Virus record (IMG/VR): IMGVR_UViG_3300031857_001124 | Coordinates: 1-27,059 of that record | Direction: 5' to 3' (one strand) | Length of the DNA: 27,059 nt | From: a virus | In this document: positions 12,229 through 24,036 of the stretch, in pieces | How positions within the stretch are numbered: the stretch's first letter is position 1 | Layout of the letters: every line of letters begins with the position of its first letter | The notes under the pieces: generated by a model | Told to the model about the DNA's origin: nothing | Seen by the model: only the letters and a program-made list of their open reading frames with translations | The model's database searches: none | Position numbers and translations under genes: made by a program

Positions 12229-15200
12229 ATGCCAGAACAGACCAGTCAGATCGTAATCAACGAGCCATCGCAGGACGTAAAGCCATACCTTGAACTGCTG
12301 CGAAACGCGGCATTCGGTCTGGTGTTTACCCCGGAGGCCATTCGGCGCTCGCAGCTTCCCGGTGCGGCAAACCTGTGGGGGAATATTGCGGCACCTGCAG
12401 CGAATACCGTCCAGGCGCCGGCATCGCTCCCGTCGACCGTCCAGGCCCCGATTGACGTGCCGTATAGCGTCATCGACCTTGACTCCGGCAGCGGAAGCCG
12501 CCTCGCGCAATCCGCGGCGGCGCTTGAGCGTGCGTTCAGGGACACGGTCGGACGGCCTGCGGGCGGGGCTGGGCGGTTCGCCGATGGCGGTCGCCTTTCG
12601 CAGTCGGCAAGCGACATCGAGCGCGGCATCGCACAGTTCCTCTCTGACGTGAATCTCGGCGCTGGCGGGTCTCCCATCGGCGGGATGTATCCGGCACTTC
12701 CTGTCTCGCCCCCTGCGCGGGTTCCCGTTCGCATTGGCACCGGAACGCAGGCCCCTCCTCCCCCGACTCCTCCCTCGGTAACGCCTCCCCCGACCTCGGT
12801 GGGCGGGGTGATTACGACCCCGCCGAGCGGTCCTCCGCTTGTCGTCACGAACCCGAACCCGGCGATGCAGCCCCCGCCCCAGCCTCAGCCCCGTCCCGGT
12901 CAGCCTCAACCGCAGCCCCAGCCCCCGCCCCAGCCTCAGCCCCGTCCCGGTCAGCCTCAACCGCAGCCCCAGCCGCAGCCCCAGCCGCAGCCCCAGCCGC
13001 AGCCTCAACCGCAGCCTCAGCCTAGTTTCGGTGGCGCGACCGCAGCCAACCAGAGCTTCCGCGACATGATGTTCACTCGCAACCAGCCAGAGAACTTCGC
13101 CGGGGCGGCCGCAGCGCAGGCCGCTGGATACAATCCAACCCAGTACGCTGACCGCAGCGTAGCCGATCAATTGGCAGCGAGGCTCGGCGGCGGCTTGATG
13201 TTCACGAATACAGGAGGGCCAATAAGCCCTCCGTCACAGGCCACGCTGGACTTCGGCGGCGGGGCACAGCTAAACGCCGGCCTGGTGGACGACAAGATCC
13301 GGCGCGGAGAGATCGAGGCGCTCAGGCAGGAGATCCGCATGCTCGGCGGCACTGTCAATTTCGCCAAGGGCGGCGCTGTGCGGGCGCAGCAAGGCCTCTT
13401 CACGCCAGCGAACAATCCGTTCAGCCGACCGGGCGCGCAGAGCATATTGACGGGCACGCCGTCCTCCTCCACGCAGCAGGGGCTATTCACTCCGGCGAAC
13501 AATCCATTCGCCCAGTCGGGAACACAGGGCCTGACGAGAGCCGTGCCGTCCAGCCCCACTCGACTATCGTCCCTCGGGCAGTCCGCAACGCCCACTTCTC
13601 AGCCCAGCCCAGAGCAGCTAATCCAGACCGGGGCGCAGCCCGCCACTGCAAATGTTCAAGGGCTGCCCCCTGGCACGAACACCTCGTTCGCCACCTTGAA
13701 TCCGTACCAGCGGTACGAACAGCAGCGGGTCCTCGGCATGGGAGGAAACTTCGGGCAGGTTGGCGCGGGGAACCAGATGCAGGTATCGGACCTCACCCGC
13801 GCCGGCCTGACTGGCCTCGGGCGGCTCCCCAGCTACTTCGACGAGTATGGTCAGGTTCAGGCCGGTCGAACCCCAACCGGGCAGGCGACCACCAACTTCG
13901 GTATCGCGAACGACGTCTTCGACGTGGCAGGAAATCAGGCTCTCTCGGCAGCCCAGAACGCCGACACGCTCTTCGGAAGGAACGACATCACCTCGACCTT
14001 CCAGGACACGATGCGGTACCTCCAGCAGAACCCGACGCAGTTTCAAGCGGGGGATATCACGCTGGGGCAACTTGAAGCACCGCAGCTGAATGCGCCCACC
14101 GGAATCTCTCCCTCACAGCTAACCAGCTACCAGATGGCGGGGCCTCGGTTGGTCGATACGTCCGCGTCCAACATCAACCCTCTCTCCGTCCAGGGCGAGA
14201 GCATCACCGGGCTGCCGCAGCTAACCAGCTACCAGATGGCGGGGCCGGAGAGAATCGCTACCTCGGATCTCTCGATCAATCCGATGGCGGTCACCGGACA
14301 GGCCATCCGCGATATCAACGCCTCCAACGCCGGCATGCAGGTACAGGGCGAGGGGTATCAGGCGAGCACGATGGGCGGCCCCAGCCGCTTCATCGACGCG
14401 AACAACCCGCAGTCGTACATGAGCCCATACCAGCAGGCCGTCATCGACACGCAACTTCAGCAGGCCCAGCGTGGATTCGAGGAGGATCGTGCCTCGCGCA
14501 ACGCCCGCGCCATCCAGGCTGGGGCGTTCGGTGGTTCCCGGCAGGCGGTGGCTGAATCTGCCGCGGCGCGGGACCTCGCGAATCAGCGCAACGCCATCGT
14601 CGCGAGTGGGATGCAGAGCGCCTTCGAGAACGCGCAACAGCAGTTCGAGCGGGATCGCGCCGCTCAGATGCAGGCACAGGCGCGGAACCAAGAGGCTATC
14701 AATCAGGCCTCTCAGTTCTCCGCTGCGAACCGGCAGGGCGCGGGACTCGCCAACCAAGCCAACGCCCAAGCCTTCGGTCTTGCCAATCTCCAGGCGCTGC
14801 TCCAGACACAGGAACTCGGAGCGCAACTCGGGCAACAGGCAAGCCTTGCCAACCAGCAGGCCATGCTGGAGGCCGGTCGAGCCAACCAGGGCGCAACACT
14901 GCAGGCCCGTCTCGCCAATCAGCAAGCCCAGCAGCAGGCGAACGAGCGTAACCTTGCCGCGGCGCTGGGCGTCCAGGAACTCGGAGCGGGTCAGCAGTTC
15001 AACGCAGCACAGTTGCGGGCGCAACTCGGGCAACAGGCAAACCTTGCGAATCAGCAGGCGTTCCTCGATGCCGCTCGGTCCAACCAGGGCGTCAACCTGC
15101 AATCGCAACTTGCGAACCAGCAGGCGCTCCAGCAAGCGAACGAGCGCAATCTTGCAGCTGCCCTTGGGGTCCAGGAACTCGGGGCGCAGCAGCAACTGGC

Positions 15201-15774
15201 CGCCCAACAGGCTAACCAGCAGGCAGGCCTCACGGCGGGCCAGTCGAACCTGCAAGCCGCCCTCGCCACCCAGCAACTCGGGCGCACGTCGGGGCTGTCG
15301 GCAGCGCAAGCGAACCAGCAGACCCGGCTCGCGCAGAACCAGGCGCTCCTCGACGCCATGGCGCGGGCCGATCAGTTGCAGCAGCAGGCCGCCCAAGGCA
15401 ACGTCGGGAATCGCCTCGCCGCCCTCGGCCAGCAGACGCAGTCCGCACTCGCCGCGAACCAGATCGGGCAGTCGCGGGCAGACCTGCAACGGCTGGCGCA
15501 AGCGATGGAACTCCAGAACCTTCAGGCGCTGCAAGCTGCTGGCGCAGGCGTCGATGCCAGAACCCAGCAGGCTCTCGACCTCGGCTACCAGGACTTCATC
15601 AACCAGCGCAACTTCCCGTATCAACAACTCAACTGGCTCACGGGCCTCGTCAACAACATGCCGCAGTCGTTCAATCAGGAGCAGGTCCTGTTCAACCGGA
15701 CGAACCCGCTCTCGCAGATCGCCGGCTTGGCAACGGCAGGACTCGGCGCTTTCAACGCATCGCGGCAGGGGTAA
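12229..15774 (+). CDS. Internal virion / ejection protein, Q/A/N-rich, 1181 residues
   Basis: A large protein between the nozzle and giant protein genes. N-terminal region (1-115) with FADGGRLSQ near 117, then a Pro-rich zone ending in a Pro-Gln tract (about 215-264). Mid part with FAKGGAVRAQQG (about 378-389) and two QQGLFTPANNPF copies. A 34-residue repeat with QLTSYQMAGP lies near 630-672. The C-terminal half is a long Ala/Gln/Asn/Leu-rich helical region with a duplicated 66-residue unit. The QANERNLAAALGVQELGA element is in both copies. Such low-complexity, helical proteins are typical internal or tail-channel proteins in podovirus-like phages, packaged and ejected with the DNA. No catalytic motif is visible. 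Large frames on the other strand here are composition shadows. Confidence 0.68.
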   Translation: MPEQTSQIVINEPSQDVKPYLELLRNAAFGLVFTPEAIRRSQLPGAANLWGNIAAPAANTVQAPASLPSTVQAPIDVPYSVIDLDSGSGSRLAQSAAALERAFRDTVGRPAGGAGRFADGGRLSQSASDIERGIAQFLSDVNLGAGGSPIGGMYPALPVSPPARVPVRIGTGTQAPPPPTPPSVTPPPTSVGGVITTPPSGPPLVVTNPNPAMQPPPQPQPRPGQPQPQPQPPPQPQPRPGQPQPQPQPQPQPQPQPQPQPQPQPSFGGATAANQSFRDMMFTRNQPENFAGAAAAQAAGYNPTQYADRSVADQLAARLGGGLMFTNTGGPISPPSQATLDFGGGAQLNAGLVDDKIRRGEIEALRQEIRMLGGTVNFAKGGAVRAQQGLFTPANNPFSRPGAQSILTGTPSSSTQQGLFTPANNPFAQSGTQGLTRAVPSSPTRLSSLGQSATPTSQPSPEQLIQTGAQPATANVQGLPPGTNTSFATLNPYQRYEQQRVLGMGGNFGQVGAGNQMQVSDLTRAGLTGLGRLPSYFDEYGQVQAGRTPTGQATTNFGIANDVFDVAGNQALSAAQNADTLFGRNDITSTFQDTMRYLQQNPTQFQAGDITLGQLEAPQLNAPTGISPSQLTSYQMAGPRLVDTSASNINPLSVQGESITGLPQLTSYQMAGPERIATSDLSINPMAVTGQAIRDINASNAGMQVQGEGYQASTMGGPSRFIDANNPQSYMSPYQQAVIDTQLQQAQRGFEEDRASRNARAIQAGAFGGSRQAVAESAAARDLANQRNAIVASGMQSAFENAQQQFERDRAAQMQAQARNQEAINQASQFSAANRQGAGLANQANAQAFGLANLQALLQTQELGAQLGQQASLANQQAMLEAGRANQGATLQARLANQQAQQQANERNLAAALGVQELGAGQQFNAAQLRAQLGQQANLANQQAFLDAARSNQGVNLQSQLANQQALQQANERNLAAALGVQELGAQQQLAAQQANQQAGLTAGQSNLQAALATQQLGRTSGLSAAQANQQTRLAQNQALLDAMARADQLQQQAAQGNVGNRLAALGQQTQSALAANQIGQSRADLQRLAQAMELQNLQALQAAGAGVDARTQQALDLGYQDFINQRNFPYQQLNWLTGLVNNMPQSFNQEQVLFNRTNPLSQIAGLATAGLGAFNASRQG
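12871..13020 (+). repeat. Nested tandem repeats coding a Pro-Gln tract
   Basis: Two identical 51-base units abut (12871-12921 and 12922-12972); each codes 17 residues of Pro/Gln with an RPG. The last 12 bases of the second unit start a further array of five 12-base units (12961-13020): three identical CCGCAGCCCCAG, then two variants with T changes. All are in frame. They probably arise by slippage and would vary in number among relatives. The encoded stretch is an extended, flexible spacer. Confidence 0.92.
14116..14246 (+). repeat. Direct repeat, 29 identical bases, 102 bases apart
   Basis: The same 29 bases (coding QLTSYQMAGP) occur at 14116-14144 and 14218-14246. The spacing is 34 codons. 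The following residues are also alike (INPLSVQGESI against INPMAVTGQAI), so this is an in-frame duplication of a 34-residue unit that has since diverged. Confidence 0.88.
14821..15216 (+). repeat. Tandem 66-codon duplication in the ejection protein
   Basis: Two consecutive units of 198 bases (14821-15018 and 15019-15216). By hand alignment 50 of 66 residues are identical, with ten in a row unchanged (NERNLAAALG). The unit is helical with Ala, Gln and Leu in a regular pattern. A more diverged third unit may follow. It suggests growth of a rod-like helical segment by duplication. Confidence 0.85.
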
Positions 15775-17232: not shown

Positions 17233-20200
17233 ATGGAGCCAACCTACAAGCAGTACATACGCGAACTCGGTGCAATTGTAACCTTTCCCGTCGGCGTCAC
17301 TGAGGAGGAAAAGCAGGAGTTTATCCAGCGAACGCTCGCCTCGCGCAATCCGGCGGCTGCTGCTCCCGCGACCCCCCCTCCCGCCTCGGGGATTCCGAAC
17401 CCCTTGCGGTTCGTTGCGGATGTCTTTTCTGGCATCCCGTCTGGCATAATTCAAGGCGTCTCCGCGGTCCCCGAGGGGATCGGCGGCATGACCGGAAACG
17501 AATTCCTGAAGGATCTTGGGCTCGCCATCCGCGACAATCAGCTATCGAACGTACTGACGAAGCGATTCGAGGGAGAGACCGCTGGCCGTGATATCGGCGA
17601 ACTCATCGGTAATCTTGGCACCCTGGTCGGGCCAGGAGTGTATGCTCGGGCGGCTGGCCTCGGGTCCACTGCTGCCCGCGCCGCCGGTCTTGGCATGGGA
17701 GTCTCCTCCGGTGCCGCCGAGCAGGTCCGCGAAGCCGCCGCGAATCGACAGGCCGGCATGGCCGTGAGTCCTGAGCAGGAGCAGCTTGCGGCCATGATGG
17801 GAGGCGCGACCGGGCTGGCCGACATAATTCCCGCCGAACGCCTCATCAGCCGATTTAGCCCTCTCCTGCGCGGAGCCAATGAACTCGCCCAGAAGACCGT
17901 AGGCCAGCGGCTGGGCATGGCACTGGGAACGGGTGCCCTCGAAGGAGGCACCGAACTCGGGCAACAGATCGCCCAGAACGTCATCGAGCAGCAGGTATAC
18001 AACCCACAGCAGGAAACATTCGAGGGCGCTCTGCCTGCCGCAGGCACCGGGGCTGCCGTAGGGACCGGTCTCGACTTCCTTCTGACGACACTTGGACAGC
18101 GCGTCGCCAGGAAGATGCAGCCGCGCATTGAGCAGGCACGGCAACGACAACAGGGCGCTGGCCCCGCTGTCCCCGCAGGACCAGAAGACGCCATCGGTAT
18201 CCGAAGAACGGAAGCGGGCGACCCGGAGATCACGGTGATTCCTCGAGCGGGAGCGCGGCCTGCCCCGACTCCGCCCACAGTTTCGCCCGCACTCCCCCCA
18301 GAAGATCTGGCCTTCGCGCAGGACCTCGCTGATCTCAATCGGCAACAGCAGCCACCCGCTGCACTCTTCCCCTCAACGCCTATGTCGGAGCAGGCGCTGG
18401 GTGAATTCCTTAACCCCCCGGAAGTCTTCCCCATCGCCAACCTCCCCATGGGAGATCTCGGAGGCGCAGGCGAGTTCACGCCGTCCGGTCGGTTCGTTCC
18501 CGCCGTTGATCCGCTTGCCCCCGGTCTATTCCGAGACAGGCCGCGGGAGATGCGGGGGACGGGGGCGCCACCTCAGCCCGTGGTCCCGATCACGCCCGTT
18601 GCGCCGACTCCACGGCAGGCTCCTCGCCCTCCGATCACGTCTATTCTCGACCTAATGATGGGAGGCGGAGCGGACATTCCCAGCCTCAGCCAGGACGAGA
18701 GACTTGTTCTGGACCTAATCGGACAACAGCGCCGCCCGTCTCAGCCCGTCCCTCCGATGCCGTATGCCGAGACGCTTGAACTCGGGCCGCAGCAGCCATA
18801 CCTCCAGGATGCGCTCGCACGGCAGCGAGCCGAATCCCAGCGGCTTGCCGAGAGTCAGTCGGTGGTCGATCAGTTGCTGGCAGCGCAACGCGCCCCGGTT
18901 CCTGAGCCAGCCCCTGCCCCCACATCGACAGCAGCCCAGCGGCCGCAAACCGTGGAGGACGAAATCTATGCCCTGCTTGATCAGATGCGGGCTCGCAATG
19001 AGCAACTGAGAGCCGCGTCCTCTCCTCCGGCGCAGCCATCCCTTGACCTAGCTGAACAACGCAGGCAGCGAGAGCAAGTTCTCGCCGAGCAGCGCAGTCA
19101 GTTTGAGCAGCCGACAGGGATGCGAGTGAGCACCGCCGAACAGCGCGATGCGAGTTTGCGAGAGACATTCAAGCGCGTCAATGCCGAGGAACTACGCCCT
19201 GTCGAACGCGCCCGCGCCGAGCGCCAACGCGCCGCCCGACGTACCCAAGCCCCCGTCGTCCCCGAGACGGGAGTCCCCAACGAGATCGCGCTTGACGCCC
19301 AACAGCGCCTCGCCCGCGAGGAGTTCAACCGGAACCTGACCGAACTCAACCCGGACGAACTCGCCATCGTGCAAGCGAAGCAGGAATCCGGCCTCGGCTC
19401 TGCCGTCCGACCGCAGGAACTCGCCGATGTCCGGGAGTTCGCCGACCTCCCGTTCACGCGGGATCAGTATCGGCAGGCCATTGAGATCGGGAAGACTACG
19501 GCGCCGATGGGAACCCGTGGCGTGGCTAACGCCACGAACATTGCCAGATCCCTCAATGTCTCGACCGAGACCGCGCAGTCCATCACCGACACCATGCTCC
19601 GCCGAGGTGACGCCACTCCAATCCCTCGGTCTCCCGGAACCGTTCGGATCAATCCTGAATCCACGGGCCCCCGCTTCAGCGTGGAGCCCCCAGCGACCGA
19701 GACCCCAACGCCGATCACCGTCGAAGCCTTCCGGCAACGTATCGCCCGCGGCGAGGTCCCGGAGGTGCCGCTCCAGATCCACGCAGAACTCAAGTCTCTC
19801 GGTGTCGACGACCTGGTCTCGGCGAGGCTCGTGGATTCCCTTGGAAGCCCGGATGTCGCCGGCCAGTACGCCAATCGCATCATCTCCCTTGCACTTGCCG
19901 GGAAGTCTCCTGACCAGCTTCGCTCGACCCTCAACCATGAGGTCGTACATTCCCTGGTCGAACTTGGGATTTTCAGTAAGGCTGAATGGAACCTACTTCA
20001 GAACACCTTGACCCCGAGCGCAGTCCTCAGCGACGACGAGCGGAAATTCTACGCCGATCTCTACAAGAACGACCCCGAGGCTCTCGCTGAAGAGGCGGTC
20101 GCCCGAGGGATACAGAAGTACATCGACGGGCGCATGGATCTGCCCCGGCAAGCCGCTGCCGCGGTCGAGAAGACCACGTCCGTATTCTCGAAGCTGGGGG

Positions 20201-23200
20201 ATCTCTTCCGGGAGCGTGGCCTGGAGACGCCCGAGCAGGTCATCGGCGCGTTCCGGGCTGGCGAGATTGGAAGACGGCAGTTGCCCGGAACGCGCACCGC
20301 GAGCACTCCATCGAATACGGCGGACTCCACGAACCTGCGCGACCTTGAGGACCTTCTGGGGAAGACGGATTCTGAGGGATATGCGATTCCGGAGGAGCGG
20401 GCCAGACTCAGTTACGTTGGGGAGCGGGCGTACTCAGAAGACCCGGCTGAATCCGCTCGCATCGCTTCATTCCGCGAATCGGCGATGAAGATGGAGCAGT
20501 CGGGCGAGGACCCGGAAAAGATCCGGCTCGCAACGGGATGGTTCCGAAACCCATATGACCAGATGCTGCGGTATGAGGTAGGGGACCAGGGAGCATCGCT
20601 GACCCAAGCATTCCGGGATCTTCCAGAGTCTGGCAGATATGCCGAACTAAAGGAAATCCCTCTTGAAGAAGCACTGGACCATCCGGATCTGTTTCGGGCG
20701 TATCCGGAGCTGAAGAAAGTAAGAGTTATCAAGCAACCAGGGTTTTTTGATATTTTTAGAGGGCTGCAAGGATACTTTGATCAGGAAAGAAATATCCTCA
20801 ACATCACCCCGTACGCCAAAGATCCAGGGGGCACTATGCTCCACGAGATCCAGCACTGGATTCAGACCAAGGAGGGGTTTGCCCCCGGAGGAAACGAGAA
20901 CCTTGCAGTAGAGCAAGCACCTAAGGATAAAATTGAGAAAATTATCCTCAGCGCGATGGATGAGAAACAAAAAGGACTAGACGAGAAGGCTCAAAAAGTT
21001 CTTGATCTAAAGTCATCTATGGCTAACCTGCGAGATCTGGAAAAGAAATATCCAGCTTTCGTGAAAGAATATAAGTTGGCGGAGCGGAAGAAAGAATTAG
21101 CACGAGAGGCGTACTACAATAAATCCGGCTCACTTGAAGACTACAATAATTCAATAGGGTTGTTAGCAGAGGCACTGAAAGATATAACAGATCGAATCAA
21201 AAAAGATCGTGGAGTATCTGAGCTAACTTTTCGAGAAAAAGTAAACATCCGGACAAAAACAAGAGAGGCTCTTGAATTTAAGCAAGACAAGCTGGATGAG
21301 GCAGAGTCCAAGTTCATGGCCGCTCAGGATGAACTCTCAAAGATCAGACGCGGCGATCCAGATACGATCAATCAGCTGGTCAAGGACAAGGGGTTTGAAC
21401 TATACAAGAACATCGCAGGAGAAATCGAGTCCCGCGACGTCCAAGCCCGCCAGTTCATGACTCCGGAGGAGAGACGGCAATCGCGCCCACTCTCCTCGGA
21501 GAATATCTCCCCCTCTGACGCCATCACCATCCGTCCCGGCGTCCCGGTCCCCCGCCTCTCCATCGAGCAGGAGCCGGTACCCAACCCGTTCTTCGCGCCG
21601 CCCGAACCAGGCAAATCCATCGCCCAGACCGCAGCTGAGAAGCTACAGTTGCGTCCCAGTTCGCTGAGTGAGACGCGAACGGCGGTCATCGACCGTCGCG
21701 CCCCCTTCGCCAAGTTAGCTCGCGCCGCAGGGACCATCGGCAAAGCCGAGATCTCCAGCGAAGAAGCCGTGCGCCGCCTCGACGTAGCCAACGATCAGGC
21801 CATCGCGAACCTGAAATTCGGGCCTCTGAAACTCGAAGGCAAGGCTGGCAACGGCTACTTCATCGCGAGCGAAGGGCCGCATCCGCTCGGCTCCGATGGC
21901 TACATGACCCGGATGGCCGAGGCTGGGAAGCTGGACAAGTTCTTCCACTATCTCGCTGGACTTCGCTCCACCGCCCTCGGTGAGCGCGAGAAGCAGCTTA
22001 CCCCGGCGCAGATCCGGCAGTACCTGAGCTACGGGAACGAGCCAGGAATCAAGCAGGCCGCCGCCGAGCACAAGCAATTCAACGATGGGATGATCGATGC
22101 GGTCGTCGCCTCCGGGCGATTCTCGAAGGAAGAGGGCGAACGACTGAAGCGCGACATGTATATCCCCTACCTGCGGATCAGTGAGACGCCCGAGGGCGAT
22201 GTTCGCTTCACTGCCGGCGGGGCGAGCCTCGCCTCTGCCCCCAAGCTGAAGGCGCTCAAGGGCGGCCTCGGGCAAGCAGCAGATCCCCTCGCTACCTACG
22301 TCGAGAACGTCCAGATGCTGACCACCATGGCGTTGAAGAATGAGGCCATGAACCGCGTCAGCCGCGACGGCATCCAGGCCGGCTACATGCGCCCTGCTCG
22401 CAAGGGAGACGAGAATACCGTCCAGGTATGGGTCAACGGCCAGAAGAAACGCATGGCCGTTCTCGACAAAGAACTCTACGAGAGCGTCACCTACGCCCCG
22501 CAGCCGCTCAGTGACATTATCAAGCTGCTGGCGATACCCGCCGATGCGCTCCGCGCCTCAGTAGTCTTCTCGCCCATCTATCCCATCCGCAACCTCATCC
22601 GCGACTCGCAGCAGGTCTTCGCCCAAGGCTATACCGACATGCCGATCATCTCGGCTCTCGACGGCGTCCGCAAGGCGCTCACCCGATCAGAGTCGTTCCG
22701 CGATCTCGAGCGGTTCGGCGTGGTGTCCAGCAACATCCGCGGCGAGGGCGGGGGCGAAGGCACGGCGCGGGAGGCCCGTGCGATGCTCGACTCTTCGCTC
22801 CTTGGCGCGGTGTCGAAGGGCATCCGCGCCTTCGAGGATTTCAACCAGCGATTCGAGGCCGCCAATCGCATCGTCGTCTACGAGAACCTCCTCAAGAAAG
22901 GCTACACGAAGGCGCAGGCGGCATCGGAGGCCCGCGAACTGGTGAACTTCAACAGGCATGGAGCGAACGTCATCATGCGGTCGCTGTCGGCGCTAATCCC
23001 CTTCCAGAACGCCCGCATCCAGGGCGCTGACGTGCTGTACCGTGGGGCTGCAACGAAAGACAACCCCACGATGCGCCGGCAACTCTACACCCGTGGCGCT
23101 ATGCTCGCTGCTCTGTCGATGACCTACGCGGCCGCCATCCAGAACAACCCGGCCTATCGGTCGGCGTCCGAGGAAGAGCAAGAAAACAATTGGTTCGTTC

Positions 23201-24036
23201 CTCTGCCGGATGGTGGGGCTATCCGTGTTCCGATCCCGTTTGAGCTGGGCTGGTTCGTCAAGGTGGTGCCGGAAAAGATGGCGCAATTCATGAACGGCAC
23301 CGCCGATGGCAAGGCGTTCTTTGATAGCTTCCTTCGCTTCATGGAATCGACGATGAAGTTCGACGTCGTCCCCCAAGCGGTGAAGCCGTTTGTGGAGGCC
23401 AAGATCACCAACTTCGACAGCTTCCGCGGCAAGAACGTCGAACCGAATTGGATGAAGCGACTCGAGATCGCCGACCGCTACGACGAGCGCACCACCGAAG
23501 TCGCCAAGGCGATCTCCGAGTACTCCAATGGCGTGCTGTCGCCGATTCAGGCGGATCATATGCTGCGCGGATACAGCGGCACGACCATGAACTACCTCTG
23601 GCAGACCCTGGATTTCGCCACTAACCCGCAGGCATCGCCTTCGCTCGAGAGCAGGCAGGCCGCCGAGATGCCCGTCGTGGGTACGTTGTTCGCGCGGCGG
23701 GACGGCGGGCGGAAGCTGGCGGAAGCCTACGAGATCCGCGACCTCGCCGATCAGGCCGCGGCATCACTCCGGCTTCGGCTGCGTGAGGGTACAGCGATGG
23801 AGGCCCCAGAGCGGGAGCGGTTGACCCGCGAGGCCGGATTCGATCAGGCCATCGAGCCGATCAATCAGGCGCTTACCGCGCTGAACCAACGGGAGCGGGC
23901 GCTGCGGCGCGATATTCGCATGGGTCGCGTTACCGGCACGCAGGCGAAGCCGGAACTCGACAATATCCGGGCGAGAAAGATCGAACTGTCCGAGCGAATC
24001 CTGGAGATTCGGAAGCGGTTGGTTCCGGGTGGGTGA
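17233..24036 (+). CDS. Giant polyvalent ejection protein with two zincin-like domains and LPD38-like region
   Basis: 2267 residues. Order: a Gly/Ala-rich, membrane-active-looking N-terminal part (about 55-330); a Pro/Gln-rich linker (330-720); a possible winged-helix (about 727-805, IARSLNVSTETAQSITDTML); a metalloprotease-like domain with H902-E-V-V-H906 and E953/E954 (PEALAEEAVARG); a second domain with TGWFRNPYDQMLRYEVGDQG, PYAKDPGGTMLHEIQHWIQ (H1204-E1205, H1208) and AGEIESRDVQAR (E1397); and a long C-terminal region (about 1480-2170) with YPIRNLIRDSQQ, ALIPFQNARIQG and IPFELGWFVKVVPEKM, matching LPD38-type polyvalent domains. A terminal coiled coil ends it. Such proteins are packaged and injected with phage DNA. 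The second zincin's body is interrupted by a low-GC coiled-coil insert. Protease activity is inferred from motifs only. Confidence 0.82.
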   Translation: MEPTYKQYIRELGAIVTFPVGVTEEEKQEFIQRTLASRNPAAAAPATPPPASGIPNPLRFVADVFSGIPSGIIQGVSAVPEGIGGMTGNEFLKDLGLAIRDNQLSNVLTKRFEGETAGRDIGELIGNLGTLVGPGVYARAAGLGSTAARAAGLGMGVSSGAAEQVREAAANRQAGMAVSPEQEQLAAMMGGATGLADIIPAERLISRFSPLLRGANELAQKTVGQRLGMALGTGALEGGTELGQQIAQNVIEQQVYNPQQETFEGALPAAGTGAAVGTGLDFLLTTLGQRVARKMQPRIEQARQRQQGAGPAVPAGPEDAIGIRRTEAGDPEITVIPRAGARPAPTPPTVSPALPPEDLAFAQDLADLNRQQQPPAALFPSTPMSEQALGEFLNPPEVFPIANLPMGDLGGAGEFTPSGRFVPAVDPLAPGLFRDRPREMRGTGAPPQPVVPITPVAPTPRQAPRPPITSILDLMMGGGADIPSLSQDERLVLDLIGQQRRPSQPVPPMPYAETLELGPQQPYLQDALARQRAESQRLAESQSVVDQLLAAQRAPVPEPAPAPTSTAAQRPQTVEDEIYALLDQMRARNEQLRAASSPPAQPSLDLAEQRRQREQVLAEQRSQFEQPTGMRVSTAEQRDASLRETFKRVNAEELRPVERARAERQRAARRTQAPVVPETGVPNEIALDAQQRLAREEFNRNLTELNPDELAIVQAKQESGLGSAVRPQELADVREFADLPFTRDQYRQAIEIGKTTAPMGTRGVANATNIARSLNVSTETAQSITDTMLRRGDATPIPRSPGTVRINPESTGPRFSVEPPATETPTPITVEAFRQRIARGEVPEVPLQIHAELKSLGVDDLVSARLVDSLGSPDVAGQYANRIISLALAGKSPDQLRSTLNHEVVHSLVELGIFSKAEWNLLQNTLTPSAVLSDDERKFYADLYKNDPEALAEEAVARGIQKYIDGRMDLPRQAAAAVEKTTSVFSKLGDLFRERGLETPEQVIGAFRAGEIGRRQLPGTRTASTPSNTADSTNLRDLEDLLGKTDSEGYAIPEERARLSYVGERAYSEDPAESARIASFRESAMKMEQSGEDPEKIRLATGWFRNPYDQMLRYEVGDQGASLTQAFRDLPESGRYAELKEIPLEEALDHPDLFRAYPELKKVRVIKQPGFFDIFRGLQGYFDQERNILNITPYAKDPGGTMLHEIQHWIQTKEGFAPGGNENLAVEQAPKDKIEKIILSAMDEKQKGLDEKAQKVLDLKSSMANLRDLEKKYPAFVKEYKLAERKKELAREAYYNKSGSLEDYNNSIGLLAEALKDITDRIKKDRGVSELTFREKVNIRTKTREALEFKQDKLDEAESKFMAAQDELSKIRRGDPDTINQLVKDKGFELYKNIAGEIESRDVQARQFMTPEERRQSRPLSSENISPSDAITIRPGVPVPRLSIEQEPVPNPFFAPPEPGKSIAQTAAEKLQLRPSSLSETRTAVIDRRAPFAKLARAAGTIGKAEISSEEAVRRLDVANDQAIANLKFGPLKLEGKAGNGYFIASEGPHPLGSDGYMTRMAEAGKLDKFFHYLAGLRSTALGEREKQLTPAQIRQYLSYGNEPGIKQAAAEHKQFNDGMIDAVVASGRFSKEEGERLKRDMYIPYLRISETPEGDVRFTAGGASLASAPKLKALKGGLGQAADPLATYVENVQMLTTMALKNEAMNRVSRDGIQAGYMRPARKGDENTVQVWVNGQKKRMAVLDKELYESVTYAPQPLSDIIKLLAIPADALRASVVFSPIYPIRNLIRDSQQVFAQGYTDMPIISALDGVRKALTRSESFRDLERFGVVSSNIRGEGGGEGTAREARAMLDSSLLGAVSKGIRAFEDFNQRFEAANRIVVYENLLKKGYTKAQAASEARELVNFNRHGANVIMRSLSALIPFQNARIQGADVLYRGAATKDNPTMRRQLYTRGAMLAALSMTYAAAIQNNPAYRSASEEEQENNWFVPLPDGGAIRVPIPFELGWFVKVVPEKMAQFMNGTADGKAFFDSFLRFMESTMKFDVVPQAVKPFVEAKITNFDSFRGKNVEPNWMKRLEIADRYDERTTEVAKAISEYSNGVLSPIQADHMLRGYSGTTMNYLWQTLDFATNPQASPSLESRQAAEMPVVGTLFARRDGGRKLAEAYEIRDLADQAAASLRLRLREGTAMEAPERERLTREAGFDQAIEPINQALTALNQRERALRRDIRMGRVTGTQAKPELDNIRARKIELSERILEIRKRLVPGG
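20700..21420 (+). other. Low-GC island inside the giant gene
   Basis: Base use changes sharply within the reading frame. Hand counts give 25/60 G/C at 20941-21000, 26/60 at 21061-21120, 24/60 at 21121-21180 and 20/60 at 21181-21240, against 38/60 at 22681-22740. Codons shift to AAA, ATA and GAA. It covers the HEIQH segment and the coiled-coil insert (about residues 1160-1396), up to the AGEIESR motif. The frame stays open, so this is a functional import rather than decay. Confidence 0.85.

Follow-up and report, generated by a model that had tools for sequence, protein, structure and literature searches.

Two predicted zincin domains in a giant LPD38-type phage protein: a conserved core domain and a probably accessory second domain linked to LPD23

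The closest described systems are the polyvalent proteins of Iyer et al. 2017 (PMC5512222), in which zincins are the commonest domains. One to five zincin domains occur in about 36% of these proteins, and about 8% of the zincin-bearing ones carry two or more, in many cases with other domains in between (PMC5512222). LPD38 was named in the same work as a phage-only domain. Both processing and host attack have already been proposed as roles of these zincins (PMC5512222), and their targets are so far predicted. The protein described here resembles this class in being a giant multidomain chain encoded in a late region, with zincin MPTases, LPD domains and more than one MPTase per chain.

Several characterized or named phages offer more specific parallels. 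LPD38 stands at the C-terminus of giant podovirus virion proteins, namely JC1 gp69 (Bcep22-like), phiARM81mr p69 and a protein of Escherichia phage Pondi, as it does in our protein, and 51 unique peptides of the 4515-aa JC1 gp69 were identified in virions purified on CsCl (PMC9144972). Both phiARM81mr and Pondi have a zincin some 700 aa before LPD38, which is the layout of our protein minus the cassette described below; these zincins, however, are of the HExxxH form, LPD23 is missing, and phiARM81mr has extra methyltransferase and ParB-like domains. Pseudomonas phages H66 (gp60), 8P and AF (AF_016) combine, within a single chain, an LPD23-type HExQH...GEVEAR zincin and a further HExxH domain, but in the reversed order, with HExQH first; AF_016 has no Pfam match to LPD38. 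The GenBank note of H66 gp60, an LPD23-zincin homologue, describes it as a virion protein verified by mass spectrometry, and in phage AF the homologous gene comes behind genes for internal virion proteins and a structural lysozyme. In physical terms N4 vRNAP (gp50) is the closest analogue; it consists of a membrane-binding N-terminal domain, a flexible linker, an HExxH domain and a large helical domain and is threaded through the tail (PMC12633501). Unlike our protein, N4 vRNAP has an RNA polymerase domain.

We analysed a window of 27,059 nucleotides (IMG/VR virus record IMGVR_UViG_3300031857_001124, positions 1 to 27,059). The gene under study occupies 17233..24036 on the plus strand, as do all features given below, starts with ATG and encodes 2267 aa. 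The open reading frame, the motifs HEVVH at residue 902 and HEIQH at residue 1204, and the putative ligands E953, E954 and E1397 were all found where the initial annotation had placed them. A composition-preserving shuffle gives an expectation of only 0.0025 HExxH motifs per protein, so the two motifs present are not a chance occurrence. The large chain contains LPD23, LPD38 and two zincin domains, all of them kinds of domain typical of the polyvalent class. Both of the enzymatic domains recognised in it are zincins, and no further recognisable enzymatic domain was found in the 2267-aa chain; EAD11 and 4HBT Pfam matches were weak, fell under the cut-off and were disregarded. Upstream of the gene lie members of PHROG virion structural and tail families, and the gene is the last before the integrase. 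This position in the late virion region supports its earlier description as a polyvalent or ejection-type protein. Virion presence is known for homologues, and by analogy with them we propose that the window protein is ejected.

The N-terminus had been described as membrane-active-looking. This description finds weak support in the Gly/Ala-rich composition of residues 60-300 (17410..18132; 16% G and 14% A), a possible membrane-interacting part, but hydropathy over 19-residue spans revealed no clear transmembrane helix in this region, the best value being 1.29. Residues 1-300 are conserved, at 53% in the nearest relative (L002) and at about 32% in two further homologues, L113 and L114. They are followed by a Pro/Ala/Gln/Arg-rich linker (residues 301-817, 18133..19683) that is poorly conserved and, judging by its composition and variable alignment, probably disordered. 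The C-terminal region comprises residues 1439-2267 (21547..24033). The LPD38-like region reported earlier is a match to Pfam LPD38 (PF18857) at residues 1973-2142, with an E-value of 1e-28 and a score of 101.2 bits against a curated cut-off of 27. Profiles of 5 and 28 sequences of the LPD38 region gave no convincing match to solved chains. Homology of this region to the C-terminal domain of N4 vRNAP is unsupported by sequence profiles, though the two may still share a fold.

Zincin 1 (residues 818-1055, 19684..20397; HEVVH at 902-906) is the core zincin of LPD38 proteins. Among 33 homologues the only invariant columns are H902, E903, H906, E953, E954 and A957. Since E953 and E954 are both invariant, the sequence cannot tell which of them binds the metal. 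The predicted structure has a mean pLDDT of 75, exceeding 90 in the core, and follows the layout described for zincins: a helix (27-38 in model numbering), three strands (46-50, 60-63 and 66-70), the HExxH helix (76-93) and a downstream glutamate helix (131-147). Structure comparison recovered mostly zincin metallopeptidases, namely lethal factor, PPEP-1/-3, IrrE/PprI, selecase and 3e11, with Z from 6 to 7.5. These scores are individually modest, and Foldseek gave no match below 0.001; the weight for the modelled fold is carried by the uniformity of the re-aligned list of zincins, not by any single score. Zincin 1 alone gave no hit in Pfam, nor in a tblastn search of 50,697 phage records, and its homologues were obtained only via profile and alignment work on LPD38 loci.

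The second zincin is preceded by an LPD23 domain (PF18838, residues 1074-1123, 20452..20601), matched by Pfam with an E-value of 1e-8 and 35.1 bits against a curated cut-off of 27. The HEIQH motif of zincin 2 (residues 1204-1208, 20842..20856) and the GEIESR motif (residues 1396-1401, 21418..21435), which contains the predicted third ligand E1397, are separated by a helical, coiled-coil-like insert (roughly residues 1224-1387, 20902..21393). Invariant columns among 41 homologues include H1204, E1205, Q1207, H1208, Q1211 and E1214 on one side of the insert and Y1391, G1396, E1397, E1399 and R1401 on the other. Because it is invariant in these 41 sequences, E1397 is well supported as the third ligand. 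The model of the module is confident (pLDDT 88) and also has the zincin layout, with the HEIQH helix at 143-159 and the GEIESR helix at 340-353 (model numbering); the insert of roughly 160 residues lies between these two helices. Foldseek and VIA matches were mostly to coiled-coil proteins, the search being dominated by the helical insert. The module also matches predicted viral "large polyvalent protein associated domain" proteins, one of them named for LPD38.

The presence of two distinct zincins in one chain, as claimed in the initial annotation, is thus supported by the invariant metal-site residues and by the predicted zincin layouts. Far from being unconserved among homologues, the HExxH motifs are invariant in the 33 and the 41 sequences. 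An hhalign comparison of zincin 1 with zincin 2 shows that they share only the active-site core (P 3.9e-6 over 36 columns). The profile comparison with LPD and metallopeptidase families proposed earlier was productive for the former, with LPD23 and LPD38, but neither zincin is covered by a Pfam or NCBIfam model at its curated cut-off. The annotation had overlooked both the LPD23 domain just before the second motif and the cassette around zincin 2.

For the C-terminal region, alignment-based searches of viral contigs yielded at least 582 homologues; for the LPD23-zincin the number was at least 488. At least one HExx(x)H motif was present in all 53 sampled full-length LPD38 proteins, against 2% in shuffles, and nine of the 53 have two. 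Of the 37 sampled LPD23-zincin phage proteins that are full-length and reach 1000 aa, 36 have two or more such motifs; the 37 were chosen on one HExQH, so that only the second motif is informative. L113 (2418 aa) and L114 (2377 aa), about 29-34% identical to the window protein, have its order of zincin 1, LPD23-zincin 2 and LPD38 and are collinear with it from end to end. The combination is therefore a recurring architecture and not a new one. Pairing of two zincins, which had been regarded as unusual, is a published property of the class (PMC5512222) and, in our sample, the norm for LPD23-zincin phage proteins of large size. The earlier interpretation is right in part, as regards the two zincins, LPD38 and the ejection-type protein. 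The two functions that it suggests, processing of virion proteins or cleavage of host proteins on entry, could each apply; they reasonably repeat what had already been hypothesised for the class (PMC5512222), and the novelty was overestimated.

The segment comprising LPD23 and zincin 2 (residues 1056-1438, 20398..21546) behaves as a unit. L002, the nearest relative, shares 93% identity with the window protein over residues 1439-2267 and about 90% over zincin 1, and lacks residues 1056-1438. The same residues are missing from a second relative, L109, with 84% downstream identity. The GC3 of the segment is 0.54, against a late-gene mean of 0.74, and is below that of all 632 other segments of the same size (minimum 0.616); the lowest value, 0.43, is reached at residues 1236-1385 of the helical insert. 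The GC3 island coincides exactly with the segment missing from the two nearest relatives, and the reading frame is kept across both junctions. In the tree, the window protein pairs with L002, with L109 outside, both relatives being free of the cassette. The simplest reading of these sequence comparisons is that the cassette was gained recently, as one unit, in the lineage of the window, although the tree by itself gives no formal decision between gain and repeated loss, because L113 and L114 share the architecture. A single gain across all LPD38 proteins finds no support in the tree, which needs at least four changes but in which several rows are long-branched.

With moderate confidence, we favour a reading in which the gene encodes an LPD38-type polyvalent virion protein that is ejected with the DNA and carries zincin 1 as a core domain and zincin 2 as an accessory peptidase acting after ejection. 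A tailed phage would carry the protein in its virion and eject it together with its DNA. The sequences show a conserved scaffold, made up of the Gly/Ala-rich N-terminal region, the long linker, zincin 1 and the LPD38 region, and a second module of LPD23 with zincin 2, which is placed behind zincin 1 and ahead of the C-terminal region and would have been acquired recently as one cassette. Both zincins are predicted to bind zinc. Zincin 1 would be part of the core of the ejection protein, as a peptidase or as a regulatory domain, a role assigned to it because of its universal presence in LPD38 proteins. Zincin 2 would act on host proteins or release a part of the polypeptide after ejection, and would not be obligatory for virion maturation; we read it as accessory because it is dispensable in near-identical relatives and appears to be recently acquired. 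The division into core and accessory zincins follows from the absence of the cassette in the two nearest relatives and from the GC3 island. The location of the second zincin in a seemingly mobile cassette together with LPD23 speaks against a single maturation pathway that needs both zincins. More tentatively, LPD23-zincin 2 might be a mobile effector cassette that phages add to and remove from an LPD38 ejection scaffold which is itself fixed, and it might have a host or defence target of its own, separate from that of zincin 1. The polymorphism of this cassette between near-identical phages adds to the known picture of polyvalent proteins. The window and its two near relatives constitute a natural pair, in which almost identical ejection proteins either have or lack a zincin cassette, which makes the question of processing or host attack directly testable.

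Alternatively, one or both zincins could cut their own polypeptide, in the head or after ejection, and release functional parts. Such autoprocessing was proposed for polyvalent proteins on the basis of phage P1 DdrB, a protein with a zincin at its C-terminus whose packaged form is a 76-kDa product (PMC5512222), and the long linker between the N-terminal region and the zincins is compatible with it. N4 vRNAP, however, has the same kind of HExxH domain and is packaged whole (PMC5512222), so that it is unsafe to assume constitutive self-cleavage, and recombinant N4 vRNAP showed its authors no evidence of degradation (PMC12633501). We also found no conserved short linker motif fit to be a cleavage site, and the nearest relatives lack zincin 2 while the rest of the protein is intact. 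We regard autoprocessing as possible but doubtful. That both zincins are injected as proteases against host defence or envelope proteins, one of the options proposed in PMC5512222, appears rather unlikely: the presence and absence of the cassette among close relatives fits accessory effectors, but zincin 1, found in 53 of 53 LPD38 proteins, is not accessory.

The uncleaved packaging of N4 vRNAP also implies that the zincins of proteins of this kind may have no protease function. Their role could be mainly structural or regulatory, helping the protein to fold or to be packaged and cleaving little, as may be the case for the C1 domain of N4 vRNAP; encapsidation in N4 needs the region in which the HExxH domain lies (PMC5512222), and the C-terminal domain inhibits the polymerase (PMC12633501). 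A purely structural role, however, needs no invariance of the catalytic glutamate and all ligands, which is what both sites display across divergent homologues, and we consider a structural or regulatory role unlikely. The foreign base composition of the cassette and its absence from the nearest relatives could also be produced by chimeric assembly of the metagenome contig. This explanation is highly improbable, as both junctions are in frame and L113 and L114 are collinear with the window protein over its whole length, with the same domain order.

Several minor observations concern motifs in related proteins. R[FLY]S motifs flanking the zincins of the window protein (PRFSVEPP, RARLSYVG and VPRLSIEQ) were considered as possible processing sites or module borders, an idea dropped because there was no border enrichment over 73 LPD23-zincin occurrences. 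LPD38-region relatives from named phages (L023-L027) have an HExxxH variant (HEVLAH, HEIVVH and similar) at the place of HEVVH. HEGRH recurs at varied positions in the LPD38 proteins L033, L040, L050, L056, L059 and L061, and also in L063, L066, L075 and L096; it may belong to another domain that is not a zincin. A viral protein of at least 5978 aa (L135) has five HExxH motifs, two of which belong to HEIQH/GExEAR zincins.

Elsewhere in the window, the gene at 12229-15774 encodes an 1181-aa late protein without a PHROG match or a convincing Pfam match; its residues 192-316 weakly match TonB models, probably by composition. A stand-alone gene of 100 aa at 1901-2203 matches positions 529-606 of the 1338-position PHROG 220, "minor head protein and DNA pilot", as well as part of a "DNA methyltransferase" PHROG, and its product is perhaps a solo form of a giant-phage-protein domain. 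Finally, L109 sits in a contig of a MAG labelled as Acidobacteriaceae, a possible hint at the host.
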